Assembly: GCF_025602895.1 (NCBI RefSeq)
Contig: NW_026516260.1
Coordinates: 1 to 64,000, forward strand
Source of the DNA: Polychytrium aggregatum
Lineage: Eukaryota; Chytridiomycota; Chytridiomycetes; Polychytriales
Length of the DNA stretch: 64,000 nucleotides
Direction of reading: 5' to 3'
Part shown: one piece after another, positions 1-32,313 of the stretch
Position numbering within the stretch: position 1 is the stretch's first letter
Layout: the number at the start of each line of letters is the position of its first letter
Program-made: the position numbers and the translations under genes
Notes under the pieces: model-generated
Told to the model about the DNA's origin: nothing
The model's database searches: none
Seen by the model: the letters and a program-made list of their open reading frames with translations, nothing else

Positions 1-54
1 CCATGGTATCTGCAAGAGCACCAGAAGATCAACCACTACCGCAACCACTACGAG

Positions 55-120
55 GTGAGTGAGTGTGAGTGTGAGTGTGAGTGTGAGTGTGAGTGTGAGC
101 GGAGGTGAGTGTGGGAGTGT
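55..120 (+). repeat. GAGTGT hexamer array starting at a splice donor (intron 1, broken TTLL9 copy)
   Basis: The donor GTGAGT at 55-60 runs directly into repeated GAGTGT units. The counterpart in the intact gene lies at about 30738-30801 on the minus strand. Confidence 0.85.
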
Positions 121-1149
121 CTGAGTGAGTGATCAGTTGTGGGAGCCATGATCCAATCCATCCAGTCTCACCACTCTGGCACGCCGTCGACAACCACCAC
201 ATGTTGGTCCACACTGGCCGCCCACAGTCGACTATGTCTCCATCGTCCACTGACCACCCGCCTCGCTGACTACCCGCCTCGCTGACCACCTCGCCTCAGC
301 TCACCCGGAAGGACCTCCTGGTCAAAAACGTCAAGCGGATGATCAAGACCATGGAGAAAGAGTACGGAAAGACCGAGGCTGCAAAGTTCGAGTTCATCAC
401 CACGTCCTATGTGCTTCCCCAGGAGCACGCCCTGTTCCAGGAAGAGTTCAAGCGCAACCCCGGATCGGTGTGGATCATGAAACCCGTCGGCAAGGCACAG
501 GGCAAGGGAATCTTCCTCATCAACAAGATGTCGCAGATCAGCCAGTGGCGCAAGGACCCGAGGGTGCGGGGTGGATCGGACGGCGATGCACCCGAGGCTT
601 ACATTGTGCAGAAGTACATTGAGAACCCGTATCTGATCGGAGGTGAAGCCGATGGGTGGTGCTGGTGCTGGTGGTGCTGGTGCTGGTGGTGCTGGTGCTG
701 ATGTTGTGGGGTATTGTGGTGTTGATGTGGTGTTGATACTCCTGCTGCTGCTACTCATTTGTCGTCGGATGGCCCGGTCCATCCGAATCGACCACTGCAC
801 GGCGGTCGTGCTCGACTGACTGAGGCGGTCGCTGTCCACAGGGAAAAGTTTGACATCCGAGTGTATGTGCTGGTGACATCGTACTATCCCTTGGTGGTGT
901 ACATCCACCGCAACGGCTTTTGTCGCTTCTCCAACTACCAGTTCTCGATGAACTCAAAGGACATTTCGAACCTCTGTGAGTGGCGCTGTGGCTCTGACTC
1001 TGGGCTGCTCGGCTGCCCGGCTGTGACCTGATGCATGGCGTGTGTTGATGTGTGCTGTATATCTCGATGTGTGTCGTCCGTCTCGATCTGTTTCATGGCT
1101 TTTGTGTGCAACAGCTTGCACAATGTCGCCCACGATTGACTCGCCTCAT

Positions 1150-1340
1150 CACTCCACTCTCACACTCTCACACTCTCACACTCTCACACTCTCACACTCT
1201 CACACTCTCACACTCTCACACTCTCACACTCTCACACTCTCACACTCTCACACTCTCACACTCTCACACTCTCACACTCTCACACTCTCACACTCCCACA
1301 CTCTCACACTCTCACACTCTCACACTCTCACACTCCCACC
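1150..1340 (+). repeat. (CACTCTCA)n minisatellite in intron 3 of the broken TTLL9 copy
   Basis: An 8-bp unit repeated more than twenty times, with occasional CACTCCCA variants. It ends a few bases before the acceptor ...CCCCAG at 1344. The array is pyrimidine-rich on the coding strand. Confidence 0.93.
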
Positions 1341-2494
1341 CCAGATATCCACGCACAAAACGTCGCCATCCAAAAAGACCTCGCCGGCACTACGATGGCG
1401 ACAAGGTTGCAAGGGCTCCTGCGCAACTCAAGACCTATCTCACCAGCAAAGCACGGCACCGCCCGCCATCAACGAGCTCTTCACCGAGATGGAGGCGCTG
1501 GATTGTGCGCAGTCTGATGAGTGTCCAGAAGGTCATGATCAACGACAGCACTGCTTGAGCTGTGAGTAGCGGCCGGCGGTGCTGGTGCTGGTGGTTGTGG
1601 TGGTTGTGGTGGTGCTGGTGGCTGTGGTGGTGGTGGTGGTGTGCGGGCATGAGGGACTGACTGGGCTGCTTGAAGATCGTCTGGAAATTGGCGCAGATGT
1701 GCATGTCGGTGTGATGATCACCACCAACTGCAACCTGCACCATTCCATCAACCACCTGCACCACCACCCTGCACCACCACCTGCACCACCACCTGCACCA
1801 CCACCTGCACCACCACCTGCACCACCACCTGCACCATCCCATCACCACGCGCAACACCACCCCATCTGTCTCCAACCCAACATCCGCTCACCGCTCACCA
1901 CGCATCACCCACCGCATCCACAGATACGGATATGACATCCTCATCGACGACGCCCTCAGACCGTATGTGTTGGGCCTGATCCTGGGTCGACTTTGACTGC
2001 ACGCACGGACCCGCCACTCGCCGACCACCTGCTGACCATCATCATCACCGACACGATCACTAACATACCGACACCATCACTAACATACCGACATCACCGA
2101 CACTATCACTAACATCACCAACACCATCGACACCATCCGCCGATACCATGTCCGCCTCAAACCCACTCGCCTGTGCAACGCACATCCTCCCACCCTCTGC
2201 AGATGGCTGCTCGAGGTGAATGCGTCGCCGTCGCTCACGGCCGAGACCCAGTTCGACTACGACCTCAAGTATGCAAGCTCAACGACGCCTTTGATGTCAT
2301 TGACTTTGAGAAAAGGTCAGCGACGACAGGCGGCACATGGCGCCTGTGCCGGAGGTGTCTGTTGACCCAGCCGCCAATGTCGAGCAGCGGTGGCGGCTGG
2401 GGCCAGGCAGAGGCATGATGAGCTGGGGCCGAGTGCGGTTCCCACCGCCACCACCACCACGGCTGATCATCCCGCACCACCACGACTGATCATC

Positions 2495-2590
2495 CCGCAC
2501 CATCCGCACCATCCGCACCATCCGCACCATCCGCACCATCCGCACCATCCGCACCATCCGCACATCCGCACCATCCGCACCATCCGCACC
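2495..2590 (+). repeat. (CACCATCCG)n 9-bp array in intron 6 of the broken TTLL9 copy
   Basis: About ten tandem 9-bp units lie immediately upstream of the exon-7 acceptor at 2594. The intact copy has the same unit at 28185-28280 with a different continuity. Confidence 0.9.
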
Positions 2591-3072
2591 ACAGATACAC
2601 CAATGACAAGAAGCTCAGGACCCGTGTTGGCGGCTTTGATCTGGTTTACAACGACGGACCTGTCAAGCACGAGCGCACCAGCAGCTATGCCTCCTATCTC
2701 GGTGCGTGCGTGTGGTGGTTGTGGTGGTTGTGGTGTTGCAGAGCGAGCTGCGATGGCAGCGGCCATGACGAGGCAGACCGATCCAGTGACGGACGGTCGA
2801 TGATGTGACATGCATCCGCGACGGGCCCCATGGGTATCCATGAACACATCCACATTCATGGTCACGACTCTCTCCACGGAATCGCTCTCCCACTCCCACT
2901 CTCACATCCACTCCCACTCTCACTCCCACTCCCACTCCCACTCCTACTCCCACTCCCACTCTCTCACCGGCTTGCTCTCGCTCCAGGATGCTATCACCCA
3001 ATCAAGCGTGCTCCGCGCATCAAGAAGCGGCTCGGTGGTGGGGCGGGATCGGGTCCCACCGTCCCGAATTGA

Positions 3073-3392
3073 GTCACATCGATCTATGAGTCTTCAGCCA
3101 CCTCACCACCGAGTCATCCATTCGTTGCATGTACATCTGACAGCCCCAGGGATCTCTGTCAATAACCTAGAGTACAGACATCAAAACTAACTTGCCCTTC
3201 GGGCACTTCTATTCAATCAAACAATCCAGGCAGCTTTCACATAGAGTCATTGACCGAGATTATGGCGGAGTTGGCTGGGTTCCAGTTTTTATAAAACCAT
3301 AGAGGATACTCTTCAATATAGATTCCTTTCACTAGCGATATAATGTTCGTTGCGGTAAGTTTGCGCTTCTGAGCTTGTCTGGATGCTCATTC
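3073..3392. other. Gene-poor spacer between two convergent 3' ends
   Basis: A 320-bp AT-richer spacer between the TTLL9-like remnant (+) and the GH16 gene (-). It should hold both 3' untranslated regions. I see no further gene or repeat in it. Confidence 0.6.
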
Positions 3393-4886
3393 CTAAATGA
3401 AGACCATGGCCAGTGCACCCAAGAGTGTACCCAGCCCAAGGGTGGCACTCGACACGCTGGTCCTCAGGGCTCCCGAGGAAGACTTCTTTGTCGGGACGGC
3501 CGTGGGAGCTGAAAGGGGACTGGCCGAAGCAGCCAAGACGCCGGGCGGGCAGGTGATCGAAGAGTTTGTGAACGGATCGGCGGGGGCTGGGTTCAGGAAA
3601 GGGCTGAGTCAGACGATGCACTTGGTTCTGGACCATGAAGTGTCCACCCGAAAGTCCATAGACACTGCTTCCTTCCCTCTCCCTCGCTCTCGTCATATCT
3701 TGTATTGGATGATTGTGAGTCGCTGTCTCCGGCCACTCTACTTACCATTGTTCTTGTATTCCTTGATGGAATGAATGGCCCAGTAGGCATCGTTAAAACC
3801 CCCTGGCGTGGAGAGGACATACTGCTCACAGGTCAAGTCGGAAGGGCATCCTGAGTCGCCCCAGTTGCTGATGGGCCACTTGCCACAGAGCGCGGTGTTG
3901 ATGATCAGGCGCAGGTCTTGGAAGTGGTTCGAGGGACAGCAGCCAAAGTCAAAGCGCATCAGGGGAAGGCCCCAGGTATCGGGGTTGGGGTTCTCGGACA
4001 GAATGTCAGCGGGAATGTTGGGGCGGCTGAAGAAGTGGATGGCAAAGCCGTTGGTGTCCCAGTTGATGGTGTAGGCGCCGCCGCCGACGGCGTTGAACTG
4101 AGGACCAAAGGTCGAGGAATCGTTCACTTTGGTTGCACAGCCGTTGGAGAGCGCGGGGCTGGGAACGGGCGGGTCGTTGATGCCACAGGTCTGAGAGAGC
4201 GCCTGGCCGAGCTGGCTCGATCTGTCGGGCTCTCCGTAGCATCCTTGGGTGGTGGTATGGGGAGGCGAGTGACATGATGTGTTGATAATGTGAGCGTTAT
4301 GTGGATGGGTGAGTGAAATAGCACCGTCTGGGTTGGATGGACCCACCCCGGCTGCCTATCGGACCCACGCCGGACTGTGCTTCTCCGTGCAAGTCAGCAA
4401 CCTACCCGAGGAGGTGTGGATGACCATGTTGTTGTAGCTCATGGTGTTGACGCCTTCCATAAAGTCCAGCTCGCCCTGGTTGAGACCCTTGAACCACATG
4501 GCGGGCCAGGTTCCGCAGCCCGTCGGGGCGTGGCCAATGTCGGCGACGAGCAAGGTTCCAGAGTTGTAAACTTTGTTGGACTGAATGCGAACCGAGCTGC
4601 GCTTGCCGCCGCTGGGGACGACGGTGGAAGAGTCGACGGCCATGAAGGCACTGCCAGCGCCCTGGTTGAAGTAGATCAAGTTCGCCTTGGTAGCGTTGGC
4701 GCGCGAGATATACTGGTTGGTGGTGTTTGGGGTTGGATCCTTGGCGGTCATGAAGCTGAAGTTGTCGAAGAAGGTGAGGCCGGAGAACTCGGCGACCTTG
4801 GTGAAGCTGGCGGCGGCGACGAGCGAGGCAGCATGGGCATCGAGCAGCATCACGAGTGCAACGGCGAGGGCAGTCTTGGGCGCCAT
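3393..4886 (-). CDS. GPI-anchored GH16 endo-1,3(4)-beta-glucanase-like protein
   Basis: Three exons, 4406-4886, 3746-4243 and 3393-3586, join in phase to a 390-residue protein. The start ATG (MAPKTALAVALVML) opens a clear signal peptide; longer in-frame upstream sequence is less likely coding. The GH16 active-site motif is GELDFMEGV, with E139 and E144 as the expected nucleophile and acid/base and D141 between them. A tryptophan- and cysteine-containing core (WPAMWFKGLNQGELDF, FGCCPSNHF) follows. The last exon encodes a Ser/Thr/Pro-rich spacer and a hydrophobic tail (LGLGTLLGALAMVFI, stop), typical of a GPI signal. Family knowledge says such enzymes cut or remodel beta-glucans in the wall. 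Exact substrate (1,3, 1,3/1,4 or chitin-glucan transfer) is not decided by sequence. The terminal acceptor (GAACCCAG) was chosen because it alone keeps the phase and gives the GPI tail. Confidence 0.88.
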
Positions 4887-6604: not shown

Positions 6605-8756
6605 ATGAGTACTCCCAGCCGACCTTCCTACGAGGCCCTTCCTGGAGAAGGCGCTCCTCCCTCGACCTCCACGATGCAACGGCAGCCGCCTTCGAGCTCG
6701 GGGATTCCCAAACGAACTCTCTCGGTCATTCCCCAGTCCCGGTCGTCGTCGCTGGACTGCCTGGCCAAAGAAGGCGTCCTCTCGATTGCCATCGTTCCAC
6801 CCCTCAGCTCTAACGCTGGCTCCAAAAAGACAGCCTCGCCGACCTCATCGAAACCTATTGGAATACCCATTGCCAGTCTTTCTCTTTCCGACCTGCAAAT
6901 CACGACTTTCTCCACGGAAGGTAGGCAGCCTCCTGGATACAGTGGCGGCTCGATGTTGAGACAGTCGGAATCGCTGGTTGTCGTGGTTGTTGGATTTGTG
7001 GTTGTTAGATTTGTGGTTGTTAGATTTGTGGTTGTTAGATTTGTGGTTGTTGGATGTCTAGGGACGTTATTGCATCGCGATCAAAGTTGGGCAATCCCTC
7101 TGCCCCCCTCGGGCCTTCTTCTGTAGTGTTACCTCGGTGCATTCCGGCATCCGATTCTTACTCTGCACGCTCGATATCCACCTCCACTCACACCCACTCC
7201 TTCGTAATTCATCACCATTCCCGCTCTCACCAGCAACCACCCCGACAAACTCCCTCCCACTCCGGCCAAAGGATTCCTCCAGCACCATGGCGACCACCCC
7301 CACGGCCTCCACCCGCATCAAAGAGGCTGCCTCGACAACTCTCCATAACAAGTTCACTCCTGCCCTGACCAGCGCCCCCACGCTCAACCTGCCCCCGCTC
7401 ACTCTTCCCACTCCCCATCCGACCACATACCTCTCGGCCACCACCCCGGCGGTGGTCACGCCTGGATCCGTCAAGACCAGCCATGCCGCCTTTGGCACCA
7501 CCCCGACTGCCCCCATGCCCACCCGGCCCACCACTCCTTTGCATACTCTGGCTCGATCAAAGACTCCCGCTCTCGTCTCCTCGCCCGAGCATGCCGCCGC
7601 CGTCGCCCAGGCCACGCTCAGTCGCCCTGTTGCTGCCCCTCCCTCGCCCGTGTCATCGAGACCCACGACTCCCACGGCCCCGCCTCCCGCGGCTCCTGCT
7701 CCTGAAATCACCCCCGATCTGCCCGAGCTGATGGTGTACATGACCTATCGTCGTCTCCACCCCAACGCTGTCATCGCCAACGAGCAGTCCCTGCCTCAGC
7801 ATTACATGATGACCCAGGAGTCCATCCGATCCGTTCTCAAGATCACCCAGGTCTCCTTTCCCATCAGCGTCCTCTCGCTGCTCTATCTCTTCCGTCTCAA
7901 GGAGCCGTCGCAGACGGCCACAGAGTACGAGATCTTGACCAACTGTCTGATCCTGTCGCAAAAGTTCCTCGACGACAACCGATATACCAATCGCACGTGG
8001 GCCAAGGTCATCAGTCGCTCGCTCGAGGAGATCAACAGCGCCGAGATGGTCATCCTCAAGGATCTCAACTGGGACATCAACGTCTCCAAGTCCGAATACA
8101 CCTCCTTCTTGCGCACCATCCAAACCTTCAAGAAGGAACTCTCTGAGAAGCTCCCCGAGCTGCGCCCTGCGTTCAAGTCCTACCGAATGTCCATGTCCTC
8201 GACCCGACCCCGCAACCCTGCCTCGCAGCCACCTCCACCGCCGCTGCCGTCGCCCACTAGCTCCACGCCCGTCTCGGCGACGACTCCACAGGGTACCAAT
8301 TTCCCAGCCCCACCCAACAACGCCGTCGTCCTGCCTTCGAGTATGTCGGCGCTTTCGCACCAGCACAACACCCAGCACGCGCTGGAGCGATTCAGCCATG
8401 CCACCAGCGCCCCTTCTCTGAAGCGCTCCACCTCCGTCGACCGGGCCACGCGCAACCCCATCAGCGTCCCGAGCCTGAAGCGTTCGTTGTCTCGAGGCCA
8501 CGCCATCATCCCGAACTTCCTGAAAAGCAACAGCACCTCCGACGCAGTCGGCGCCCCCAACTCTGGAAACAGCTTTTGGACCCTCACTCGCAAGAAGAAA
8601 GAGTCCAAGGAGGAGCTGCATGCCGCGGCCGCCGCTCAGCCACCGATGCCCCATCCGTCGATTTTGCAGCAGCAACAGCAGCAGCAACAGCAACAGCAGC
8701 GTGCAATGACGCGAAACGCCGCCCCCGGAGTCATCGTCATTGGTGCTGACAACTAG
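6605..8756 (+). CDS. Pho80/PCL-family cyclin
   Basis: Two exons, 6605-6920 and 7234-8756, give 612 residues. Residues about 265-415 form a cyclin box of the Pho80/PCL type (PELMVYMTYRRLHPNAV, SLLYLFRLKEPSQT, LILSQKFLDDNRYTNRTWAK, LKDLNWDINVS). Such cyclins bind Pho85-type CDKs and act in G1, polarity or nutrient signalling. The flanks are long, Ser/Thr/Pro-rich and probably disordered; a polyglutamine run lies near the C-terminus (around 8668-8700). The intron holds four copies of a ~15-bp unit (TTGTGGTTGTTAGAT, 6978-7052). The acceptor at 7233 was chosen because it alone restores the cyclin frame from the phase-1 donor. If the first exon is not used, translation could begin at ATG 7287 instead. 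Confidence 0.88.
6978..7052 (+). repeat. 15-bp direct repeat inside the cyclin intron
   Basis: About four or five near-identical TTTGTGGTTGTTAGA units lie within the single intron, a G/T-rich array downstream of the donor much like those in the TTLL9-like introns. Confidence 0.85.
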
Positions 8757-9813: not shown

Positions 9814-12800
9814 TCAGTTGAAGGACGAGGTCACTGCGGCAATGAAGCACACCGCCGAGAGCACCAACTGCGAATTCTCACAGTCTTCGGTCTCGAGGTA
9901 GTAGGTGACCTTGGAGTCCATCATGCTCTTCTTGAGCAAGTGTCGACCGCCACACTCCCCAAAGAAGCGCTGTTCGCGCGAGTTTGGGTGTTTGATGATG
10001 ATGATGTACTTGCCGAGCGAAAAGTCGCCTGTGCAGCAGTAGATGGGTGCCCCCGGGTAGTTCGGGCTGATCTGGATCTTGAGTTGGTTCACGTATTCGA
10101 GGTGGGCGATCGTCACGCCCGCGGTTTGGATGACGTACCTTGCGGGATAGAGGCTGTGTGTTTTCGGGTTGTTGATGTCAAAGTCGCTGTTATAGAGCTC
10201 GAGGTATTCGGTGGCCGAGAATTGGGGTCGGGTGTCGCGGATGGTCAAGAGCCTTTCCGCCGGGAAACGAGTCAGCGATGATGCCGTCGTGCCCTGGGCC
10301 CTGTTGCTTCTGCCTCCTCCCCTCGCTCGTCCGCACTTGCAAGTCCTCTATCGACACCGGCAGCTTCTACTCGGCGCCTACCTCTTTGTCTCCCACTTTT
10401 TCAGGTTCACCACAACCGCTGAAGCACCTGTCCGTGTCGATATCTGGACTTTCTTAACCTTGCCGCTCGTACCAGACGAGATGACGCCGATGACAAACTG
10501 CTGCTTCTGCGTGACCTTCATGAACGACACATGCTTGCGGGTCACCGGTCGCGGGGGCTCTGATGCAGCCTCGGACTTTGCTGGCGAGCCCTGAAGAGTC
10601 GATTCGTTGCTTGCGGCGCGCTTGCGCATTTCCTCTTCCTTTTTCTTGGTTTCGTTGGCGAGTCGTTTGAGGAGAGCACTGCAGCCCGAAACAACGATGC
10701 CGTCAATCAACGGAACAGAGCATGCTCGGGTCGAATGGCTTGCTAGATCGTTCACAGGTGCCTTGGACCAACACGGACTCAACAATCGCAAGGACCGCTT
10801 CACTTACGTCGCAGCTAACCCAGAGTCCTCGCTGTGTGTGTACCATCCAGGATGAGTCGCATCAGTCACATATTCACGAATAAACCGGCCTCGCTTCGAT
10901 GGGACTTACAGCTTATTCTCCTCTGCCTTGGACCGGAGGAGTTCCAGCGCCTCCATCTGTCGGCGGTTCGGAACAATAATCACCTGCATCTTGATGCACT
11001 GGTGTCTGGCTGTGTCGCAAAGAAACCCACCATACAAGCAGCCTTGGTCAGTTCTATATTCGCGGTGCTGCCTAAAACTGTGGCTTCTAGCAGTTTCTAT
11101 CGCATCCATCTCGATCTGCTTCAATGATGCGCCCATCCGTCGCCCTTTGAGCAGCGCGATCAGCCGGGGAGGGGCAATCTGCACTTACGCTCGATAAATG
11201 GCACGCCCTTGCTGGTGTCCCACTCTTTGCAGTAGTCCTTGCCGAGTTGGATGTAGTCGCCGGACTTGATCTCAACGTCGCCGCTCTTTTGGCCGACATC
11301 GCTGATGCGAGTTCCGTTGTGGAAAGTGCCGGCGTTGCTGCCCATGTCGCGAATAAAGACCTATCGATATTGCAGATATCATATCAACAGCACACGCCAA
11401 TGCCCCCCGTATTTGGGTTTTGTTTGGTTGTTTTTACCGGGGAGATAGAGTGAGGAAGTTGTGTTTCCGATGCGATGTCCGGTTGGTTGTGTTTCGCGAT
11501 GTATTATCCGGGATCGGTTGTTTCGGTGCACGTTGGCGGTTCGTTGCGAGCGGGTTGTTGTCCAGATAGGGCGATTGGGAGAGTTGATTCCGCGCATCGT
11601 GATTGCGATAAAAGATACACAGCTCTGTCAGGATCCAGGCACTCCTACACGCCTGCACATGTGTGGTTTGAATAGTCAACACTCGCCCGCATATGCCCTC
11701 CCCCAGCCAACCATACATGAGAGCGCCGCAGGCAAGGGTTCGACAGAAACTCGACTTTACCCTTCCGTCCTTTTCCCAGATCTGCAAATGGACCCGGGAC
11801 ACGACCTGCGACTTGAACACTTTGAAGTATTGCGAGTTGTTGGCGTTGTGTCGGCCGAGGGTGAAGCAAGTCGTAAGAACCAGATGGCAGAGCTCAAATG
11901 TGTTGTTGAGGGGCAGCAGGATGATCTGCGGGGAATCTGCGACCAGGTCGTCGTTCGAGCTGAAGATCGACAAGAGCGAGGAGCTGGAGTGCAGCTTTCC
12001 AATGGGGTCGTTGGTAACCTTGCTGGTGAACGGGTTGGGTCTCATTATTGTGCTCGCAATCGAAGATTCGTGGGCGTGGCGGTGTGGAAGTGTTGCCGAG
12101 TTGGGTTCGTCAGGGGACTCGGAGTCGCTGTCTTTGTCGCCCTGGTTGCGCTCGGACATGTATATACCCGCAGATGCATCCCCGCGATCAGGCATGAAGA
12201 AATCTCTGGGCTTTATCGCGGCTCCGAGGCCTACTGTTTCGACGCCGGGTGGGTGCGATGCTTCATTGCCTGGTCGAGCTCCCGGGATTTGTTTCAGAGA
12301 GAGCTGCTGTTGCTCCGACCGGTCACTCGTGCCAACACCTGGGTCGTCCTTTGCGTTGCTAGACACATCTCCAAGCGTCGCTACCGTGGACCGGATTCCA
12401 AACTCCAGAGTGCCTGACTCAATACGGACGTCGGCTAGTCTTGCATCGGCAGGTTTCGAAGGGATCTCTTGGTTCGGTAGTAGCACGACGGTCTCCTTCA
12501 AAGCTGATTTGGCCTGATTTTTGATTTCAGCTATGTCGGTAATCGGTCCAAGCGCCACAGCGACTTTTGGTTCAATTGGACGCATACAGCCGTCACGACG
12601 CCGAAAGTGAGTTGGCTACATACCGATGCCGATCCAGCCCCTGATCCAGCCCCCGAACCAGCCCCCTGATCCAGCCCCATACCCCCACGACTGGCTGCGA
12701 TTTGCATAGCGAGACACTCGCCAGCACATACCTTCGCTGCCACTGCGGGCTTTGCGAGTCACATGGGATTGCTCTAGGTCCTCGGTTGACTTTTGATCTT

Positions 12801-19950: not shown

Positions 19951-21800
19951 ATGCATACCTCTGCTCTTCGACCCTGGGCTCTGGCCCTCGTGGCCCTGGC
20001 TCCTCTCTCGAGCGCCGCTCCTGCTGGGCACGACCTGGCTGCTCTGAACACTGGCGGCCACTTGGCCGTCAACCTCGACGCCTCGGCGCCTTCGCTTCAG
20101 ATCCCTCCCCCGATGCCTCAGGGTAAGCCTGCGTTAGCACAGTCGCATCGGTGCCGTCGTCGCAAACACCTCGCACATGAGCACATGGCTTTGCGCTGGC
20201 GGTGTTTGTCCTGACCCCTCTCCCCTGCGTCTCCCCTCAATCACATCTTGGCGATTGGTCCCCCTTCCAGCCTGGCCTCCCGTCGATCAGCTGCATTTCA
20301 TTCCCGATTCGTTCCTCACGGACCCGCTGGTTCAAAAGTAAGCGTCTTGCTGCGGCTCGTCCCAGATTTCAGCGTGGTCGCTGCTTGGTGTTGAAGAACG
20401 CCGACACTCGCTCCCTACTCTTGTCGACTGCTTCGAATTTCCCGCCTGACTCGACCTCTGTTATTAGTGCCCTGGCTTATGTGCAGGCCGTCGTCCCAGC
20501 CAATCTGCTCAATCTCCCTGTGTCGACCTACATCAGTGGTCCCACCGTCAACTACACTGCCGATCGTGAGTTTCTTCCACAATCCCTCCAGTGTCCACTT
20601 CGCATCCCTCGGGTCGGGCTCGCTGTGTTGGAGAGGGGAGGGCAGGCTGTGGGCCATTCCTGCGTCTGGTCCGGCGCCGGGCCGCTTGCCTGGTCGGCAG
20701 ATCGGTCTCTGTCTTGTCCTCGACGCCGTCCCTGCGACGCCACCCTTGCGTGTGGCGGCCATGGGCTGTGTGGGCCGCTGCACCGCATCCTTGTCGAACG
20801 ATATATGCCATGCCCAATGCTTAAACCCAAACCACACACCATCTAACCCGCTCAATCCTCTCAACATGCTCTGTCGCTCGTCTGGACTTGGTCCGCAGCC
20901 GTCGCCAACTGCTACTGGCCCAAGACCCAGTGCGTCCGCACCACCGCCACTGCAAACTACCAGGCCGATGTTATTCAGTGCCCTCAGCAGAGCACCTGGG
21001 GCCTCGCCTTTGACGACGGACCAACCAACGACACCGTCAACCACTACGACTCCATCTCCATTCGCCAGCAGCTCGACAAGATGAACATCAAGGCCACCTT
21101 CTTCATCGTCGGCACCAACCTCATCATTCGCCCGAACATTGTCCTGGACGAGTACAACGACGGCCACCAGATCGGCGTCCACACCTGGACCCACCACCCG
21201 CTCACCGCTTGCACCAATGCCCAGATCGTGGCCGAGATCAAGTACACCGAGGCCCTGATCTACCAGACCATTGGCAAGGTGCCCAACTTCTTCCGTCCTC
21301 CCTATGGCGACATTGACGACCGTGTCCGTGCCATCCTGAGCGCCCTTGGCTACACCATCACCATCTGGAACAAGGATGACTTTGCCGCCGACCAGGCCAC
21401 CACCTCGGCCACGATTGAGAAGGGCCTGGTCAACAACGTCACCTCGCAGTGGCTCCTCCCCAATCAGCCTGGATTCGTCTCCCTCAGCCACGACATTACC
21501 CCGTTCACCAGCGAGGTTGTCCTTGATTACCTCAAGTACATTGACACAAACCGCGCAAGCATCCCCCTGACCATCGAGCCCGTCGGAACCTGTGTCAACA
21601 TTCCATGGTACCGCGCCAACTCGACTATCGTCGCTTCGTCCACCACTTCCTCCGGAGCTTCCGCCACAGCCACCAATGGCAATGGCAGCGGCTCGCTGAA
21701 CAAGTCTGGCGCTGCTTCGGTTAGCGCCATGACGGCCAACACCATTGCTGCTGTCTTTGGAACCGTTGCTCTCGGCCTCGTTGTCATGCTTGCCCAGTAA
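19951..21800 (+). CDS. Chitin deacetylase CDA-B (CE4)
   Basis: Four exons, 19951-20122, 20271-20337, 20468-20565 and 20899-21800, give 412 residues. It has a signal peptide (MHTSALRPWALALVALAPL), the shared PPPMP and DPLVQ segments, then a complete CE4 domain: AFDDGP, HTWTHH, RPPYGDIDDR, TIWNKDD and SLSHD. The C-terminus is a Ser/Thr/Ala-rich spacer and a hydrophobic GPI-type tail (TIAAVFGTVALGLVVMLA). Exons 2 and 3 are 67 and 98 nt with the same phases as in the other four paralogues. It is the most divergent of the A-D array (for example QSTWGLAFDDGP) and shows no sign of recent conversion with its neighbours except for a short identical run around the DEYNDGHQIGVHTWTHH block. Expected role: surface chitin deacetylation. 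Confidence 0.92.
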
Positions 21801-23024: not shown

Positions 23025-24984
23025 ATGCCATCTCAAGCTGCCGTTTCCGTATTCACCATTCTCCTCGGTGCTGCCACGGCGACAAGACTCCCGCATCAAG
23101 CCAGCAACTCCCATGGCTTGGCCAAGCGTGCCACCCTCCAGATTCCTCCTCCGATGCCTGCTCGTGAGTTGTACGGGAGATGTCGCTGTTCCTCGGGATG
23201 TCTCACCATCGCATCTGATCCACCTCGCTGTTGTCTCATCGCATCCGATCTGCATCCAATCGACCAGAGTGGCCCTCGATCGACCAGACCAACTTCATCA
23301 CCGGCAATCTGCTGACCGATCCTCTTGTGCAAGAGTGAGTCGCTGTCGCTGTGCTGTCTCGCAGCAGTGTGCCAATGCGGTGTGGTGCGGTGCGGTGTGG
23401 TGCGGTGCGGTGTGGTGTGAGTGCGGGTGATCTGGTGTGGGAAACATGACATGATGTGATCTGGTGGTGATGCGGTGACTTGCTTGCCGTCACCCTGTAT
23501 CCCACACCCATCTCTGTTCTCCTGTTCCGTCATTTGGTTCTCTCTCCATCGGGCCGATTCGAGTTGCTAACCGGACTGTGATCGATGCGATTGCGATTGC
23601 GATCGGGTCTGGCTGTGGTCGGTCAGTGCCCTTGCCTATGTCCAGTCGGTGGTTCCAGCCTCGCTGTTGAACATCCCTCCGTCAACCTTCGTCAGCGGAG
23701 CCACAGTGAAGTACAACTCAGATGGTACGGAGTGAGACTGTGGCGAGTGGGCTGTGGGTTGATCGCTTCCAGCAGGCAGCAACGGACTGGGCCTGGGTCG
23801 GCCATGGCCGGCCAGGCTTCCCGGCACGCTCTCGATGTCGGCTCTGGCTGGTATCAGCCATGATCGACCATGATTGACTTTGCCCGAGTGTGCCCGAGTG
23901 TGTTTGATCATGATGTTGCCACACCGCGATGCTCACACCACCATTCCCACACTATTGCTCCATCGCACCGACACCACCACACCGACACTCTCGCACAGTC
24001 AATGCCAATTGCTACTGGCCATACAACCTCTGTGTCCGCACTGCCGCTGGAAACGGCTATCAGGCCGATGTCTACACCTGCCCTCAGCCCGGCACCTGGG
24101 GAATCTCCTTTGACGACGGACCCACTGTCGATCCCGTCACCCACGACGACTCGGCCGCCATCCGTGCCCAGCTCGACAAGATGAACATCAAGGGAACCTT
24201 CTTTGTGGTTGGATCGAACGTCATCCAGAACCCCCAGATTGTCCTGGACGAGTACAACGACGGCCACCAGATCGGCGTCCACACCTGGACACATCATCCC
24301 CTTACCTCGTGCACCAACGAGCAGATCGTCGCCGAGCTCAAGTATGCCGAAGCAGCCATCTACAACGCCACCGGACAGGTTCCAAACTTTTTCCGTCCTC
24401 CCTATGGCGACATTGACGACCGAGTGCGTGCCATTGCAAACGCTCTTGGATATACCGTCACGATTTGGAGTCAAGACGATCTTGCGGCCGACCAAGACAC
24501 CACTAGTGCTGCGATCGGCCAGAGCTTGATCAACAGCGCCACTTCGACCTGGCTGTCCAACTCGTCTGCCAGCTTTGTGTCGCTCAGCCACGACATCACA
24601 CCGTTCACCAGCAGCGTCATCCTCGGGATTCTTCAGTATGTCGACGCCAACCGTGCAAGCATCAAGCTGAACATTGAGCCCGTTGGCACCTGCGTGAACA
24701 AACCTTGGTTTCGCTCCGGGGCCGGAGGGAGTCCAGGCGGCACCAACACCGGCCGCACCAGCAGCCCAACCACCGCGGGGCTGCCGTATTTCGCTTCGAC
24801 ACAGGCCGCTCCGGTCGTAACGACAACAGGCAGCAGCCCGGCGGCTCCGCCGACGTATCCAACCGCACTGGCGCTCGCTCCTAAATCGGCCTCCCATGCA
24901 CCGACACGGCTTCTCGAACCTGGGCATGCGTCGTCGATTCTTCTGCTCGGTCTTTCGCTGGGGCTTGTGATCTGCTGGCTGTGA
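23025..24984 (+). CDS. Chitin deacetylase CDA-C (CE4)
   Basis: Four exons, 23025-23163, 23268-23334, 23627-23724 and 23999-24984, give 429 residues: a signal peptide (MPSQAAVSVFTILLGAATA), a complete CE4 domain (SFDDGP, HTWTHH, RPPYGDIDDR, TIWSQDD, SLSHD), a Pro/Ser/Thr linker and a GPI-type tail (SSILLLGLSLGLVICWL). From about 23073 it is almost identical to CDA-A, at a constant offset of 6640 bp and introns included. Two stretches (24299-24350 and from about 24668) instead follow CDA-D. It lacks CDA-A's hexapeptide stalk and final intron. The stop codon overlaps a donor-like GTGAGT, so an alternatively spliced extension is conceivable but no partner exon was found. Confidence 0.92.
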
Positions 24985-25528
24985 GTACCTCGTTCCCGTG
25001 GCAAGGCCGGCGTGGGGCTGTGTTTACCCATCCAGCCGAACAGACAGGGCCGCCGTTGTCTCCACTCGGTGGCGGGCCCTTTGTCGAATGACTGAGGATG
25101 TGCAGCGGACAAGCGGACACAAACCTTGCCGCGACTGGGCTCCAAACGGAGGCCGGCGGATGATGGCGCCTTGTGCGGCGATGGCCATCTTAAGGGTGTC
25201 CGCGGGACGCAAACTCGACGCCGCCACTGTCCCAGGCGCGTTGCGGGCTTCGGGGGGCTGTGTCGTTGTCTCTTTGTGCTCCTGCCATCCAATAAAACCC
25301 TCTGGGCATCAACAAACAGCAAATCGCCGTCCACGGCCGCGGACAGGCGCAGACAACGGTCATACGCGCCTCCACCACGTATAAAGCCGACGGCTTTGGC
25401 GCAGGTCCTTTCCCACCATCGCTCGCTCGTTCGTTCGCTCCATCGTCCTTTGGGCCCCAAGTCGCCTCATCCGTTGTTTCCCAAGCCCCGTCTTTAGCTG
25501 CTCCCCGTTCACAGGTTCATCAACAAAA
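24985..25528. promoter_or_regulatory. Intergenic region and promoter upstream of CDA-D
   Basis: A 544-bp spacer with no supported gene. TATAAAG at 25380-25386, about 145 bp before the CDA-D ATG, followed by a pyrimidine-rich leader. Confidence 0.55.
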
Positions 25529-27118
25529 ATGCGTTCCCTCACCATCCTCTGCCTCCTCGGCGCCACCCAGACTGCCTACGGCATCGGTATCGATCTCAGC
25601 CAGATCTACAAGAACGGCTTCAGGGTGTTTGCTGCCGATGCCAACCCCACAAGCAGCGCCGTGTCCCCTGTTACCACCTCGGCTGCCCCCGCTCCTGCGT
25701 CCACTGGCCGCCCTGCTCTGCAGCTCCCTCCCCCGATGCCCAAGAGTAAGCCAGCACCCGCTGTCCTGCTCTGCTGCCCATCCTGTAGTTGTGGGCCTGG
25801 TGTGGCATCTGTTTGGCCTGCTGACTCGAGCTGACCCTCGTTTGTTACTGCAGAGTGGCCCTCGGTTGACCAGACCAACTTCATCACCGGTGATCTCCTC
25901 AAGGATCCCCTCGTGCAAGAGTGAGTCACTCGCTTGTCGCGTTTACACACGTCTACTAGTCCACGTTGCCAATCGAGATGGTCACAATCAGATTTCTAAC
26001 CCCTGTGCTGTGATCTACCAGTGCCCTCGCCTATGTCCAATCTGTCGTTCCCGCCTCGCTGTTGAGCATTGCACCTTCGACCTACGTCAGTGGATCGACT
26101 GTCAAGTACACTGCTGATGGTAAGCAGGGCCACTGTCCACTGAATCGGCCTTGGCTGCTAAGAATCGGCATCCCGAACTAACTTGCTCGTCCTTCTGCTC
26201 ACAGCCAACGCCAATTGCTACTGGCCCAGCAACCTCTGCGTTCGCGCTGCCGCTGGAAACGGCTATCAGGCCGATGTCTACACCTGCCCTCAGCCCGGCA
26301 CCTGGGGAATCTCCTTTGACGACGGACCCACTGTCGATCCCGTCACCCACGACGACTCGGCCGCCATCCGTGCCCAGCTCGACAAGATGAACATCAAGGG
26401 AACCTTCTTTGTGGTTGGATCGAACGTCATTCAGAACCCCCAGATTGTCCTGGACGAGTACAACGACGGCCACCAGATCGGCGTCCACACCTGGACACAC
26501 CATCCCCTTACCTCGTGCACCAACGAGCAGATCGTCGCCGAGCTCAAGTATGCCGAGGCCATCGTCTACAACGCCACCGGACAGATCCCTTACTTCTTCC
26601 GTCCTCCCTATGGCGACATTGACGACCGAGTGCGTGCCATTGCAAACGCTCTTGGCTACAGCGTCACCATCTGGGACAAGGATGATCTTGCCGCCGATCA
26701 AACCACTACCTCTGTCTCCGTCGCCAACAAGCTCATCAACACTGCCACCTCGACCTGGTTCACCAACTACACGGCCGGTTTCATTTCCCTCAGCCACGAC
26801 ATCGACCCCTTCACCAGCGGCGTCATCCTCAGTATTCTCCAGTATGTCGACGCCAACCGTGCCACCATCAAGCTGAACATTGAACCCGTTGGCACCTGCG
26901 TGAACAAGCCTTGGTTCCGCCCTCTCAAGAACGCTACCGCGACTACGACTACCTCTGTTTCGGCTTCGTCGACCGCCGCTGCCTCCGCTTCTTCCTCTCC
27001 CTCTCCCACTAATGGCTCCAACCTTGTCTCTGGCTCCGCCTCGACCTTCAAGGGTCTTGGTCTCCAGCTCGTCTCGGCTGCCGCTGCTCTGGCTTTTGGT
27101 GTCGCTATGAACTTCTAG
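25529..27118 (+). CDS. Chitin deacetylase CDA-D (CE4)
   Basis: Four exons, 25529-25745, 25854-25920, 26022-26119 and 26205-27118, give 431 residues. Signal peptide MRSLTILCLLGATQTAYG, a longer Ser/Ala/Pro pro-region than its siblings, PPPMP, then the CE4 domain with SFDDGP, HTWTHH, RPPYGDIDDR, TIWDKDD and SLSHD. It ends in a Ser/Thr/Ala-rich spacer and GPI-type tail (LVSAAAALAFGVAMNF). The introns differ wholly from those of CDA-A and CDA-C. Yet the first ~270 nt of the catalytic exon are essentially identical to CDA-A at synonymous sites too, which suggests conversion limited to that block. Expected role: chitin to chitosan conversion at the wall. Confidence 0.93.
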
Positions 27119-27708
27119 ACTCATTACCCCGACAAATCCCCCCTACCTTCTAATGTGCACTCATCGTTCATCCATCGTATTTATTCCTACCCAGCTATAA
27201 AACAAGTTGTGGTACTCCGCTTTTTATTTTTCTCGTCCCCTCACCCCAATTTTCTTCACACCGACCTAACTTGATTTGTGCATGACAAATAAGACTCTAT
27301 TCTGGACAATGAATAAACGCAGCTTTGACTGCAGCAATGCTTCACGACACTTGATTGCGCACGGATGTTATCGACCTCGGTGATGGGTGCTGGCCCAGAA
27401 ACCTGACGGGGGGCGGCGGCGCTTGGTGGGTGGGCGAGAGTGGGGAGATGAGCAATTTTTTGGAGCGAAGAGGCAAGGCGTTTGTGCGATCCCGATGGCG
27501 TTTCAAGAGCCCCCACCCCAACGCCCCTCTCGCCTCCATGCGAGGGATACTTGGCCAACGCCGAGCTCAGGCCAGCGGATCGTCCTCCCATAACGAGTCT
27601 CAAGGAAGCCAGCGGCGCGGTTGAAACAATTGAAAATTGGTGTCGAGACGGATCACACCATCGTGCCCAACGATCCACCACCACCAGGATGGCGACGACG
27701 GGTGGGGC
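27119..27708. other. Spacer between CDA-D and the intact TTLL9-like gene (convergent 3' ends)
   Basis: AT-rich 3' flank of CDA-D (AATAAA-like motifs near 27310), then GC-rich DNA up to the sharp edge of the inverted duplication at 27708. No gene seen. Confidence 0.55.
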
Positions 27709-30700
27709 TCAATTCGGGACGGTGGGACCCGATCCCGCCCCACCACCGAGCCGCTTCTTGATGCGCGGAGCACGCTTGATTGGGTGATAGCATCCTGGAG
27801 CGAGAGCAAGCCGGTGAGAGAGTGGGAGTGGGAGTGGGAGTGGGAGTGGGAGTGAGAGTGGGAGTGGATGTGAGAGTGGGAGTGGGAGAGCGATTCCGTG
27901 GAGAGAGTCGTGACCATGAATGTGGATGTGTTCATGGATACCCATGGGGCCCGTCGCGGATGCATGTCACATCATCGACCGTCCGTCACTGGATCGGTCT
28001 GCCTCGTCATGGCCGCTGCCATCGCAGCTCGCTCTGCAACACCACAACCACCACAACCACCACACGCACGCACCGAGATAGGAGGCATAGCTGCTGGTGC
28101 GCTCGTGCTTGACAGGTCCGTCGTTGTAAACCAGATCAAAGCCGCCAACACGGGTCCTGAGCTTCTTGTCATTGGTGTATCTGTGGTGCGGATGGTGCGG
28201 ATGGTGCGGATGGTGCGGATGGTGCGGATGGTGCGGATGGTGCGGATGGTGCGGATGGTGCGGATGGTGCGGATGGTGCGGGATGATCAGTCGTGGTGGT
28301 GCGGGATGATCAGCCGTGGTGGTGGTGGCGGTGGGAACCGCACTCGGCCCCAGCTCATCATGCCTCTGCCTGGCCCAGCCGCCACCGCTGCTCGACATTG
28401 GCGGCTGGGTCAACAGACACCTCCGGCACAGGCGCCATGTGCCGCCTGTCGTCGCTGACCTTTTCTCAAAGTCAATGACATCAAAGGCGTCGTTGAGCAT
28501 TGCATACTTGAGGTCGTAGTCGAACTGGGTCTCGGCCGTGAGCGACGGCGACGCATTCACCTCGAGCAGCCATCTGCAGAGGGTGGGAGGATGTGCGTTG
28601 CACAGGCGAGTGGGTTGAGGCGGACATGGTATCGGCGGATGGTGTCGATGGTGTTGGTGATGTTAGTGATAGTGTCGGTGATGTCGGTATGTTAGTGATG
28701 GTGTCGGTATGTTAGTGATCGTGTCGGTGATGGATGATGGTCAGCAGGTGGTCGGCGAGTGGCGGGTCCGTGCGTGCAGTCAAAGTCGACCCAGGATCAG
28801 GCCCAACACATACGGTCTGAGGGCGTCGTCGATGAGGATGTCATATCCGTATCTGTGGATGCGGTGGGTGATGCGTGGTGAGCGGTGAGCGGATGTTGGG
28901 TTGGAGACAGATGGGGTGGTGTTGCGCGTGGTGATGGGATGGTGCAGGTGGTGGTGCAGGTGGTGGTGCAGGTGGTGGTGCAGGTGGTGGTGCAGGTGGT
29001 GGTGCAGGTGGTGGTGCAGGTGGTGATGGAATGGTGCAGGTTGCAGTTGGTGGTGATCATCACACCGACATCCACATCTGCGCCAATTTCCAGACGATCT
29101 TCAAGCAGCCCAGTCAGTCCTCATGCCCGCACCACCACCACCACCACAGCCACCAGCACCACCACAACCACCACAACCACCAGCACCAGCACCGCCGGCC
29201 GCTACTCACAGCTCAAAGCAGTGCTTGTCGTTGATCATGACCTTCTGGACACTCATCAGACTGCGCACAATCAGCGCCTCCATCTCGGTGAAGAGCTCGT
29301 TGATGGCGGCGGTGCCGTGCTTGCTGGTGAGATAGGTCTTGAGGTTGCGCAGGAGCCACTTGCAACCCTTGTCGCCATCGTAGTGCGGCGAGGTCTTTTG
29401 GATGGCGACGTTTGTGGCGTGGATATCTGGGGTGGGAGTGTGAGAGTGTGAGAGTGTGAGAGTGTGAGAGTGTGGGAGTGTGAGAGTGTGAGAGTGTGAG
29501 AGTGTGAGAGTGTGAGAGTGTGAGAGTGTGAGAGTGTGAGAGTGTGAGAGTGTGAGAGTGTGAGAGTGTGAGAGTGTGAGAGTGTGAGAGTGTGAGAGTG
29601 TGAGAGTGTGAGAGTGTGAGAGTGTGAGAGTGTGAGAGTGGAGTGATGGAGGCGAGTCAATCGTGGGCGACATTGTGCAAGCTGTTGCACACAAAAGCCA
29701 TGAAACAGATCGAGACGGACGACACACATCGAGATATACAGCACACATCAACACACGCCATGCATCAGGTCACAGCCGGGCAGCCGAGCAGCCCAGAGTC
29801 AGAGCCACAGCGCCACTCACAGAGGTTCGAAATGTCCTTTGAGTTCATCGAGAACTGGTAGTTGGAGAAGCGACAAAAGCCGTTGCGGTGGATGTACACC
29901 ACCAAGGGATAGTACGATGTCACCAGCACATACACTCGGATGTCAAACTTTTTCCCTGTGGACAGCGACGCCTCAGTCAGTCGAGCACGACCGCCGTGCA
30001 GTGGTCGATTCGGATGGACCGGGCCATCCGACGACAAATGAGTAGCAGCAGCAGGAGTATCAACACCACATCAACACCACAATACCCCACAACATCAGCA
30101 CCAGCACCACCAGCACCAGCACCACCAGCACCAGCACCACCAGCACCAGCACCACCAGCACCAGCACCACCAGCACCAGCACCACCAGCACCAGCACCAC
30201 CCCTCGGCCTCACCTCCGATCAGATACGGGTTCTCAATGTACTTCTGCACAATGTAAGCCTCGGGTGCATCGCCGTCCGATCCACCCCGCACCCTCGGGT
30301 CCTTGCGCCACTGGCTGATCTGCGACATCTTGTTGATGAGGAAGATTCCCTTGCCCTGTGCCTTGCCGACGGGTTTCATGATCCACACCGATCCGGGGTT
30401 GCGCTTGAACTCTTCCTGGAACAGGGCGTGCTCCTGGGGAAGCACATAGGACGTGGTGATGAACTCGAACTTTGCAGCCTCGGTCTTTCCGTACTCTTTC
30501 TCCATGGTCTTGATCATCCGCTTGACGTTTTTGACCAGGAGGTCCTTCCGGGTGAGCTGAGGCGAGGTGGTCAGCGAGGCGGGTAGTCAGCGAGGCGGGT
30601 GGTCAGTGGACGATGGAGACACAGTCGACTGTGGGCGGCCAGTGTGGACCAACATGTGGTGGTTGTCGACGGCGTGCCAGAGTGGTGAGACTGGATGGAT

Positions 30701-32313
30701 TGGATCATGGCTCCCACAACTGATCACTCACTCAGACACTCCCACACTCACCTCCGCTCACACTCACACTCACACTCACACTCACACTCACACTCACTCA
30801 CCTCGTAGTGGTTGCGGTAGTGGTTGATCTTCTGGTGCTCTTGCAGATACACATGGTCAAAGGTCTCGTGTACCCAGTGCACATCTGCCCAGAAAAAGTC
30901 CCAGTCCATCTCAGAGTCGCCTTCGCGCCACGACCGATCCCGCATCACATCGTACACTGTGTTGCGGAGCGACGTCCGGAACTTGATCTGGATGGCTGCC
31001 GCTGGTGTGGCCGAGGCCGGGGCCGTCCCCGTGGCCGTGGGGGGAGGCACCGGTGTCGCTGCAGGGCCGCCTGTGGTCGGCACACCGTTGGTGGATGCAG
31101 CACCCGTTGTCGCTGTCGCCGTCGTTGCTAATGTCGTTGCCAATGTCGAGCCGGTGATCGATGCCTGGCCGTTGGGCGATGGTGTCCCGTTGGTGGATGC
31201 CTCGCCTGCAACAGACGGCGGGTCGGCGACAGAGAGTGATGTCCGCATTGTCGTCCCGGCCACAGACGACGAGGTGGGAGGGACTGGTCCGGAGCGAGTG
31301 ACTGGTCGAGGCGATCCGGCCATGGACGAAGGCGACCCAGTGCTTGACGACAACGATGACAGCGATGACAGCGATGACAGCGATGACGGAAGCAGCGACA
31401 GCGGCAGCAGCGACGACGAGATCAGCGATGACGACAAGAGTGTCGACGGACCCTCCAGCAACAGCGACGACGATGGCGAGCCGAGACTGAGACTCGAGAG
31501 CGACATGAGGTTGGGCTGGTGCGGGTCACTGGCAGCGGCGAGGGGAGTTGTGGTGAGGGGAGTTGTGATGGGGGGAGTTGTGATGGGGAGAGTTGTGATG
31601 GGGAGAGTTGTGATGGGGAGAGTTGTGATGAGGGAAGCAACCACAGCTGGAGAGGAAATGGAGGCTGCTGCTTCGGCGAAGGTGGATGCCGTGGGAAGTG
31701 ACACCGATGAGTTGGTGTTGGTGTTGGTGTTGGTGTTGGTGTTGGTGTTGGTGTTGGTGTTGGTGTTGGTGTTGGTGTTGGTGTTGGTGTTGGTGTTGGT
31801 GTTGGTGTTGGTGTTGGTGTTGGTGTTGGTGTTGGTGTTGGTGTTGGTGTTGGTGTTGGTGTTGGGAGTGATCCTGGTGGAGATTGCGCTGTCTGCTCCT
31901 GCACTGTCTGCTCCTGCACTGTCTGCTCCTGCACTGTCTGCTCCTGCACTGTCTGCTCCTGCACTGTCTGCTCCTGCGGTGCCTTGGGTGGCATTCTCGC
32001 CTCCATCCTCGATGGTCGTTGGATTCACTGGCGATCCAGCCACCGAGATCGGGGACGAGGCTGTCCTGATGCCAACCACAGACGACGGAATCAGAGGCGG
32101 AATCGGCTTTGCCGACATGGTGGCGGCCGGGGTCGGGCGACCGAAGGGCCTGGCCGAAGGAGGCGACTGAGACAGCGACTGGGACAGCGACTGAGACAGC
32201 GACTGGGAGCGGGAGTGCGAGCGAGACAGGGACCGGGACTGCGACAGCGAGCGGGAGTGTGGACGGGAGAGCGATGGGAGGATGGGAGGATGTGGCTGGA
32301 AAGCCGGAAGCAT
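27709..32313 (-). CDS. TTLL9-like tubulin polyglutamylase with very long low-complexity N-terminus
   Basis: Eight exons, 30802-32313, 30214-30556, 29821-29955, 29210-29426, 28814-28852, 28460-28573, 28074-28180 and 27709-27794, join in phase to 850 residues. From about residue 435 it follows animal TTLL9 closely: [94 protein letters not shown] and [13 protein letters not shown]. These are the TTL ATP-grasp motifs. TTLL9 adds glutamate chains to tubulin, notably in axonemes. The first ~430 residues are simple sequence: Ser/Arg runs, about six AGADS units, a ~50-residue Thr-Asn run and PITTL units. An upstream exon (32617-32699, encoding MSNMNNTNNTNN) could splice in phase to 32383 and extend the N-terminus. 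Introns are packed with minisatellites. Confidence 0.87.
28185..28280 (-). repeat. 9-bp array in TTLL9-like intron 6
   Basis: About ten GTGCGGATG units (plus-strand reading) directly beside the exon-7 acceptor at 28181. Confidence 0.9.
28938..29038 (-). repeat. 12-bp array in TTLL9-like intron 4
   Basis: Tandem CAGGTGGTGGTG units (plus-strand reading). A second G/T-rich motif cluster (GGTGGTTGT-like on the coding strand) lies at the donor end of the same intron, about 29120-29200. Confidence 0.88.
29436..29640 (-). repeat. 8-bp (TGAGAGTG)n minisatellite in TTLL9-like intron 3
   Basis: About 25 units of an 8-mer, slightly more than in the other arm, ending about ten bases from the exon-4 acceptor. 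Confidence 0.93.
30094..30200 (-). repeat. 15-bp array in TTLL9-like intron 2
   Basis: About seven copies of CACCAGCACCAGCAC (plus-strand reading) just downstream of the exon-2 donor; the other arm has about three. Confidence 0.92.
31543..31632 (-). repeat. 15-bp coding repeat (PITTL units) in TTLL9-like exon 1
   Basis: Six imperfect GGGGAGAGTTGTGAT units encode PITTL-type pentapeptides. Confidence 0.85.
31711..31866 (-). repeat. (GTTGGT)n hexamer encoding a Thr-Asn run
   Basis: About 26 perfect GTTGGT/GTGTTG units. On the coding strand they read ACCAAC, giving an unbroken Thr-Asn dipeptide run of about 50 residues. Confidence 0.95.
31889..31980 (-). repeat. 15-bp coding repeat (AGADS units) in TTLL9-like exon 1
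   Basis: Six units of CTGTCTGCTCCTGCA, encoding AGADS pentapeptides in frame. Confidence 0.93.

Follow-up and report, generated by a model that had tools for sequence, protein, structure and literature searches.

The stretch analysed here (the window, 64,000 nucleotides of a Polychytrium aggregatum contig referred to as C373) carries a gene-bearing spacer enclosed by two inverted arms, each made up of a predicted tubulin-tyrosine ligase-like (TTLL) family gene together with the upstream region and exon 1 of a PPR-like gene. The whole analysis covers assembled contigs from one assembly of one strain, among them C135 and C194. The fungus is probably diploid, and C135 is taken as the other haplotype (haplotype A) relative to C373 and C194 (haplotype B). 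The features of the window are listed below, where CDA-A to CDA-D denote predicted chitin deacetylases (CE4 polysaccharide deacetylases).

1..3073, plus strand: left arm, inner part only, an error-rich contig end with most of the TTLL-family gene (contig comparison)
3074..27707, no strand: spacer between the arms, 24,634 bp in C373 against 17,994 bp in C135
4359..5204, minus strand: ORF with a GH16-type beta-glucanase match over ORF residues 142-268 (PDB phmmer, 3wdt, E 1.5e-22)
7062..8753, plus strand: ORF with a cyclin domain
11241..11372, minus strand: FHA domain fragment, one stop within the matched stretch
16421..18452, plus strand: CDA-A, containing the first direct repeat (16421-18079)
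20268..21797, plus strand: CDA-B
23061..24981, plus strand: CDA-C, containing the second direct repeat (23061-24719)
25851..27115, plus strand: CDA-D
27708..34872, minus strand: right arm, complete, 7,165 bp (contig comparison)
27709..32313, minus strand: predicted TTLL-family gene, right copy (hand-made splice model, Pfam, PDB)
30993-30802, 30556-30214, 29955-29821, 29426-29210, 28852-28814, 28573-28460, 28180-28074 and 27794-27709, minus strand: TTLL catalytic exons, right copy (hand-made splice model)
33434..33708, plus strand: 17-bp tandem array inside the arm, immediately 5' of the PPR-like start codon
33723..34547, plus strand: PPR-like exon 1, inside the arm, common to the left and right PPR-like genes (hand-made splice model)
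34894..36324, plus strand: PPR-like exon 2, 476 aa, right flank only

An earlier note on this DNA had described 1-3073 and 27708-30856 as near-identical reverse complements, which is what BLASTN returned (3168 columns, 96.0% identity, 12 mismatches and 114 gap columns), and had seen the homology break one base past the TTLL stop codon, where the same inner edge was found here. Its outer limit at 30856 does not hold, this being merely the position with which position 1 of the window pairs; the right arm actually reaches 34872. The suspicions that the arm might be longer and that position 1 might be a contig end both proved correct: position 1 is the first base of C373 and lies inside the left arm, so that about 3.9-4.0 kb of that arm are absent from this contig. 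The sequence preceding position 1, i.e., the missing outer part, is present in C194 (13897-17785) and C135 (13891-17877), and the two haplotype B arms sit on separate contigs, the left being read in C194 and the right in C373. Since both arms, of 7.0 kb each, occur in C135 (698,648 bp) flanked by unique sequence, the inverted repeat is very likely real and not an assembly join, a choice that the note had left to be checked.

A false inverted join, or a collapse of the arms into one consensus, would find some encouragement in the contig ends at the locus, as C373 begins within the arm and C194 stops in CDA-A, with error-rich sequence, and in the 99.85% identity (1 mismatch, 7 gap columns) of the two C135 arms over their outer 5.3 kb. 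All 12 of the 1-base indels private to C373 in a three-way comparison fall within 1-3000 of the window, and part of the 4% difference between the arms is contig-end error and tandem-repeat length. However, C135 passes through both arms into different flanks, which encode different PPR-like bodies, and the haplotype B arms still have haplotype B alleles in common despite lying on two contigs, whereas cross-correction would be expected to mix all four arms and not to sort them by haplotype. An artefact of this kind is highly improbable.

Membership of the arm gene, called TTLL9-like in the earlier note, in the TTLL family is predicted from the Pfam TTL domain, which spans the catalytic core of the spliced model (E 7.2e-86), and from its best solved relative, TTLL6 (PDB, E 4.9e-44). 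The earliest in-frame Met of the right copy, at 32313, is the putative start, and the N-terminal region is of low complexity. Over the 410-aa catalytic core, the four arms scored (C135L, C135R, C194L and C373R) are 100% identical, the error-rich C373L being left unscored. At the outer edge, 34872 falls within intron 1 of the PPR-like gene, whose exon 1 encodes 275 aa in haplotype B and 255 aa in haplotype A. The left exon 1 was considered as an orphan and rejected as such, for a diverged exon 2, open over 561 aa, is present in the left flank; in C194 its frame shifts near residue 520, probably through contig error. The left and right bodies are about 30-33% identical (30% over 398 aa, E 7e-64) and their third codon positions are 30% identical, that is, saturated. 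Whole-genome searches found no further homologue of either body, each being the only homologue found of the other. As for their nature, PPR_2 (Pfam) scored below cut-off on the right body, and no Pfam match was obtained on the left body or on exon 1. The predicted structure (mean pLDDT 80) consists of helical repeats, and its eight Foldseek matches at E <= 0.001, five of them designed or synthetic PPR proteins (best 5i9h, E 8.8e-05), have TM values of only 0.2-0.5 and rmsd above 10. For the PPR-like pair, the degree of divergence suggests a duplication far older than that of the arms would imply. This juxtaposition of near-identical arms with apparently ancient, strongly diverged paralogous gene bodies is the main point that lies beyond the view of the earlier note.

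Identity between the arms is very high, noncoding DNA included, with 6 substitutions over 7 kb between C194L and C373R, plus repeat-length indels. Among the four arms compared, 13 of the 16 two-against-two differences group by haplotype, two by side and one crosswise, the grouping seen at SNP 29072; one test of these events took 15 of the 16, excluding a 45-bp haplotype-grouped indel at 28259, where C135R is poorly aligned. Ten of the 13 haplotype-grouped events lie within tandem arrays, sequence more prone to parallel change; the other three are SNPs outside arrays (31106, 30674 and 29425), and C373L is concordant at the two of these that it covers. At five of the 14 arrays measured, lengths are equal in the arms of each haplotype and unequal between haplotypes (80/80/140/140, 92/92/70/70, 90/90/105/105, 125/125/110/110 and 48/48/60/60), two further arrays agree near-exactly within haplotype, one is invariant and six are off the haplotype pattern. 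In the outer part (34026-29425), arms within a haplotype are closer than allelic arms. No such closeness is seen in haplotype A over the inner 1.3 kb, where the right arm stands alone and the two arms differ at 16 aligned columns, many of them within one misaligned array. Grouping by haplotype implies at least one transfer between arms after the haplotypes split, as otherwise grouping by side would be expected of differences that predate the haplotypes, and parallel changes would be needed for the observed pattern. All events could stem from one tract per haplotype, so that we infer, rather than observe, recurrent transfer.

The explanation that probably accounts for these observations is an old inverted duplication whose arms have been homogenised by gene conversion. 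The ancestral unit would have been a head-to-head pair, with the PPR-like gene facing outward and the TTLL-family gene inward, the latter presumably part of the original duplication, and this pair would have been duplicated in inverted orientation long ago. Non-allelic gene conversion, the likely copying mechanism, would then have kept the two 7-kb arms alike across PPR exon 1, the sequence upstream of it and the TTLL gene in full, introns as well as exons, halting wherever divergence was too great for the copies to pair, i.e., at the PPR intron 1/exon 2 border outward and at the TTLL stop codon inward. Because conversion would span exon 1 but not the bodies, two PPR-like genes with very different bodies would come to share one exon 1.

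The transfer could instead have come after one recent 7-kb copying event, in which, of an old inverted pair of PPR-like paralogues, the left member had been broken and was mended with the right one as template; copying would have continued across exon 1 and the TTLL gene up to the point of rejoining, thereby adding a second TTLL gene with no long homogenisation. Mirrored homology is indeed absent past the PPR-like genes (no ORF matches at E <= 0.001 between C135:1-12180 and 47325-80000), blastn matched nothing between the two 4-kb stretches that adjoin the arms on the inside, and a small inverted tRNA pair in Saccharomyces likewise grew by gene addition (PMC9731477). Nevertheless, the haplotype-grouped alleles in both arms require at least one later transfer even so, and an inner edge one base past a stop codon would be more in line with decay that reached as far as conserved coding sequence than with an end placed at random. 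Such an event is rather unlikely.

Occasional crossovers between the arms could invert the spacer, so flipping is possible. An active flip/flop system, with spacer orientation polymorphic or switched, would be in keeping with 7-kb near-identical inverted arms 18-25 kb apart, and inversion would break no gene, because each arm contains its TTLL gene in full and exon 1 would remain connected with the PPR-like body in the flank. Repeated flipping is described in PMC9731477 for the yeast counterpart, whose 4.2-kb arms lie 24 kb apart. Yet all four flank-arm-spacer passages (two on the left, in C135 and C194, and two on the right, in C135 and C373) share one orientation, so that no flipped spacer was seen in four junction passages on three contigs of one strain, and the polymorphic inversion contemplated earlier is unsupported so far. 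An active system at this locus is improbable.

What differs between the haplotypes is CDA copy number, not spacer orientation. As to the spacer genes named earlier, all four CDA genes (each with a Polysacc_deac_1, i.e., polysaccharide deacetylase, match) and the cyclin were recovered; the GH16-type gene was recovered through PDB phmmer only, its ORF giving no Pfam match and PF00722 none on C373, and the FHA gene amounts to a fragment with an internal stop. Recombination between direct-repeat paralogues changes copy number and is an ordinary process. Here the two direct repeats are 98% identical, CDA-B is absent from C135:1-80000, where nothing is closer than 75% relatives, and C135 carries a chimeric CDA copy. 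The 6,640-bp difference in spacer length (24.6 kb against 18.0 kb) is a CDA copy-number change by recombination between the direct repeats, in this case nested inside an inverted repeat, and it illustrates ordinary turnover of cell-wall genes between haplotypes.

In programmed inversion switches, such as those of mating-type switching yeasts, inversion alters the expression or identity of a border gene; in the present locus the upstream region and exon 1 are the same in either arm. FLNA-EMD is an example of a human inversion mediated by inverted repeats. Mammalian inversions of this class (PMC3961182) have in common with this locus long inverted arms, conversion and potential recurrent inversion, but here the setting is fungal, no flipping was seen and parts of diverged genes lie in the arms. 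Y-chromosome palindromes likewise have gene-bearing arms kept identical by arm-to-arm conversion (PMC6790999), although the spacer is long here (18-25 kb) and nothing points to a sex chromosome. The closest parallel is the Saccharomyces chromosome XIV flip/flop region, for which PMC9731477 describes 4.2-kb inverted repeats (IRL/IRR) of polymorphic orientation whose arms cluster within strain, read as concerted evolution by gene conversion. Both are fungal, with two protein genes per arm, a spacer of about 24 kb and arms near-identical in noncoding DNA too; there, however, the arm starts at a tRNA gene and orientation is polymorphic, whereas here the arms measure 7 kb, orientation is single and the outer edge cuts a gene, leaving two diverged genes with a common exon 1. 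A search of papers outside subscription found none on this locus or on inverted-repeat conversion in chytrids.

If homogenisation by conversion is correct, the locus would be an example, from a fungus that apparently lies outside the budding yeasts, in which a long inverted repeat is maintained in this way, and would illustrate how two diverged genes can acquire the same first exon through conversion. It has a built-in yardstick, in that the same gene is near-identical within the arm but has reached saturation immediately beyond it, which makes the limits of conversion (where and why it halted) directly testable. A broader proposal, which we regard as doubtful, is that a long-lived conversion domain makes the two PPR-like (RNA-binding-type) genes share a promoter and an N-terminal, probably mitochondrial-targeting exon and preserves two identical TTLL genes, with crossovers in the arms toggling the chitin-remodelling cluster in wild populations.

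Finally, C135 and C194 begin at the same base. A telomere was considered there, but no telomeric repeat was seen in the first 600 bases or in any tandem array of C135:1-10000; two short weak matches aside, this starting stretch is otherwise found only on C343, from base 1908.

The inverted repeat is real and larger than the earlier note gave. The reverse-complement match between 1-3073 and 27708-30856 was recovered again by BLASTN, and contig C373 (NW_026516260.1) does begin at position 1, where a contig end had been suspected. In a search of the assembly (64.7 Mb, 418 contigs) in which 40 of 104 candidates were scored, the TTLL arm was matched at least five times (both window copies, C194:17786-20883 and twice on C135), the remaining matches being short and of repeat type. 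The entire structure of flank, arm, spacer, arm and flank is present on C135 (698,648 bp), and from it the right arm of the window can be delimited:

C135 13891-20879, left arm
C135 20880-38873, spacer
C135 38874-45875, right arm
window 27708-34872, right arm

The suggestion that the arm might be longer was thus correct, and the left arm continues on C194 and C135, which hold the 3.9-4.0 kb lost from the window through the contig end. Taken as a whole, the earlier reading of the locus stands as to the repeat itself; its extent was too small and it was partly misread. A short contig, C343, duplicates the left flank together with the arm's outermost 341 bp. C135 and C194 share their exact first base, 13.9 kb from the left arm; this start sequence occurs elsewhere in the genome search only on C343, short weak matches aside, and no telomeric repeat was seen there. 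The left flank also carries a 212-bp inverted pair, 97% identical (C135 7923-8133 and 10217-10427), found on C194 too.

Relatives of the chitin deacetylase (CDA) genes fall on paired contigs (C398/C246, C364/C74 and C375/C48), suggesting that the assembly contains the two haplotypes of a diploid. C194 overlaps C373 over 17 kb. In alignment with C135, C373 has all 12 of its private single-base indels in its first 3 kb, and C194 has 19 of 21 at window position 10000 or beyond, in its last 7 kb. Between 3 and 10 kb these two contigs are separated by a single indel and not one SNP, and C135 shows a few private SNPs. C194 and C373 are treated as parts of one haplotype (B), rough at their ends; C135 is treated as the other (A). 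Because private indels cluster at this rough end of C373, the left-arm sequence of the window is error-rich, part of the left-arm differences noted earlier is probably not real, and gene models in 1-3000 are unreliable.

Each arm contains a gene of the TTL family (Pfam TTL, E 7.2e-86), whose closest solved relatives are TTLL6 and TTLL7; its frame is intact and its 410-aa core is identical in all four arms read. Divergent from it lies exon 1 of a PPR-like gene, and the arm edge falls in intron 1, so that the second exons lie outside the repeat:

right PPR-like exon 2, 476 aa
left PPR-like exon 2 (read outward), 561 aa

With hand-placed splice sites, the spliced frames are open from the start codon across both exons in all four genes tested (C373R, C135R, C135L, C194L, the final letter giving the arm); exon 1 encodes 275 aa in either gene of haplotype B and 255 aa in either gene of haplotype A. 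The left body of C194 shifts frame near residue 520 of 561, giving a different end. The putative PPR assignment draws on a sub-threshold Pfam match, in the right body only, and on a helical-repeat model for which the best PDB hits were PPR proteins, at low to modest TM-scores. Exon 1 opens with 38 residues that include six R/K and no D/E, which suggests mitochondrial targeting.

Over 398 aa the two bodies are 30% identical (E 7e-64), and at third codon positions also 30%; besides the query and its allelic or redundant copies, whole-genome searches with either body recovered only its counterpart. Such saturated bodies beside nearly identical arms cannot have a single divergence age. We prefer an old duplication that would have included the TTLL gene, with arms since kept alike by conversion. 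A recent 7-kb copy joining two old inverted PPR-like paralogues, followed by at least one later transfer, is less favoured; it stays a live rival because an ORF comparison gave no mirrored homology farther out than the PPR-like genes, and blastn gave none within 4 kb of either inner edge.

Transfer between arms is addressed by the four-arm alignment, in which 16 events divide the arms two against two: 13 by haplotype, two by side and one crosswise. A binomial test on 15 of them (12, 2 and 1), omitting a 45-bp indel at 28259 because C135R aligns poorly there, gives p = 0.0003 against equal thirds, a value that overstates independence since the events are linked. With the 8-mer and CTCCCA arrays also dropped, nine group by haplotype and one crosswise. 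The haplotype pattern is found in three SNPs outside arrays, and among 14 tandem arrays measured lengths are exactly haplotype-matched in both arms in five, nearly so in two, invariant in one and otherwise different in six. The duplication and its edges are common to the two haplotypes; the pattern therefore requires that sequence passed from arm to arm later than the haplotype split, unless changes arose repeatedly in parallel. The 12 haplotype-grouped events used cover about 4.6 kb (34026-29425), and one tract per haplotype could be enough for them; further tracts are conjectural. Near the inner edge the haplotype A arms are less alike: their last 1.3 kb has 16 aligned mismatches, many of these within a single array. 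Left and right also remain distinguishable, in both haplotypes, by a 6-bp indel at 27836. Many arrays lie in TTLL introns and upstream of the PPR-like gene (e.g., window 29432-29640 and 33434-33708); others, within coding sequence, alter protein length between haplotypes.

The locus belongs to a known kind, the homogenised inverted repeat; what is unusual is that it has an edge within a gene. Salzberg et al. (PMC9731477) describe a closely similar yeast locus, with homogenised 4.2-kb arms, a 24-kb region and repeated flips; they propose that conversion is responsible and that inversion arises from rare crossovers. In its homogenisation, the locus studied here behaves as the yeast one does. Here, in contrast to those flips, a single orientation is found: the passage from left flank through arm to spacer (C135, C194) and that from spacer through arm to right flank (C135, C373) agree in all four instances, with no sign of a flipped spacer in this assembly. 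The possibly polymorphic inversion suggested earlier is so far not supported, and on these contigs the locus does not fall in the flipping class; an inversion system is possible, if unproven.

The spacers do differ in CDA copy number, that of C135 being 6,640 bp shorter than the window's. CDA-A and CDA-C each carry a copy of a direct repeat, of which C135 has one copy:

window 16421-18079, direct repeat (CDA-A)
window 23061-24719, direct repeat (CDA-C)
C135 34227-35885, single copy

The upstream flank of the C135 copy is that of CDA-A (386 of 388 differing columns) and its downstream flank that of CDA-C (420/420). Of the 16 informative columns inside the repeat up to 17744, 11 are A-like and five scattered ones C-like; all 17 from 18032 on are C-like, so that the main switch lies between these positions. 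The C135 copy is an A/C chimera, an ordinary recombination product between the two direct repeats; C135:1-80000 lacks CDA-B and one more copy. Beyond the right arm, the window holds a further CDA-like gene (38124-38748), with about 54-58% protein identity to the spacer CDAs in best ORF matches.
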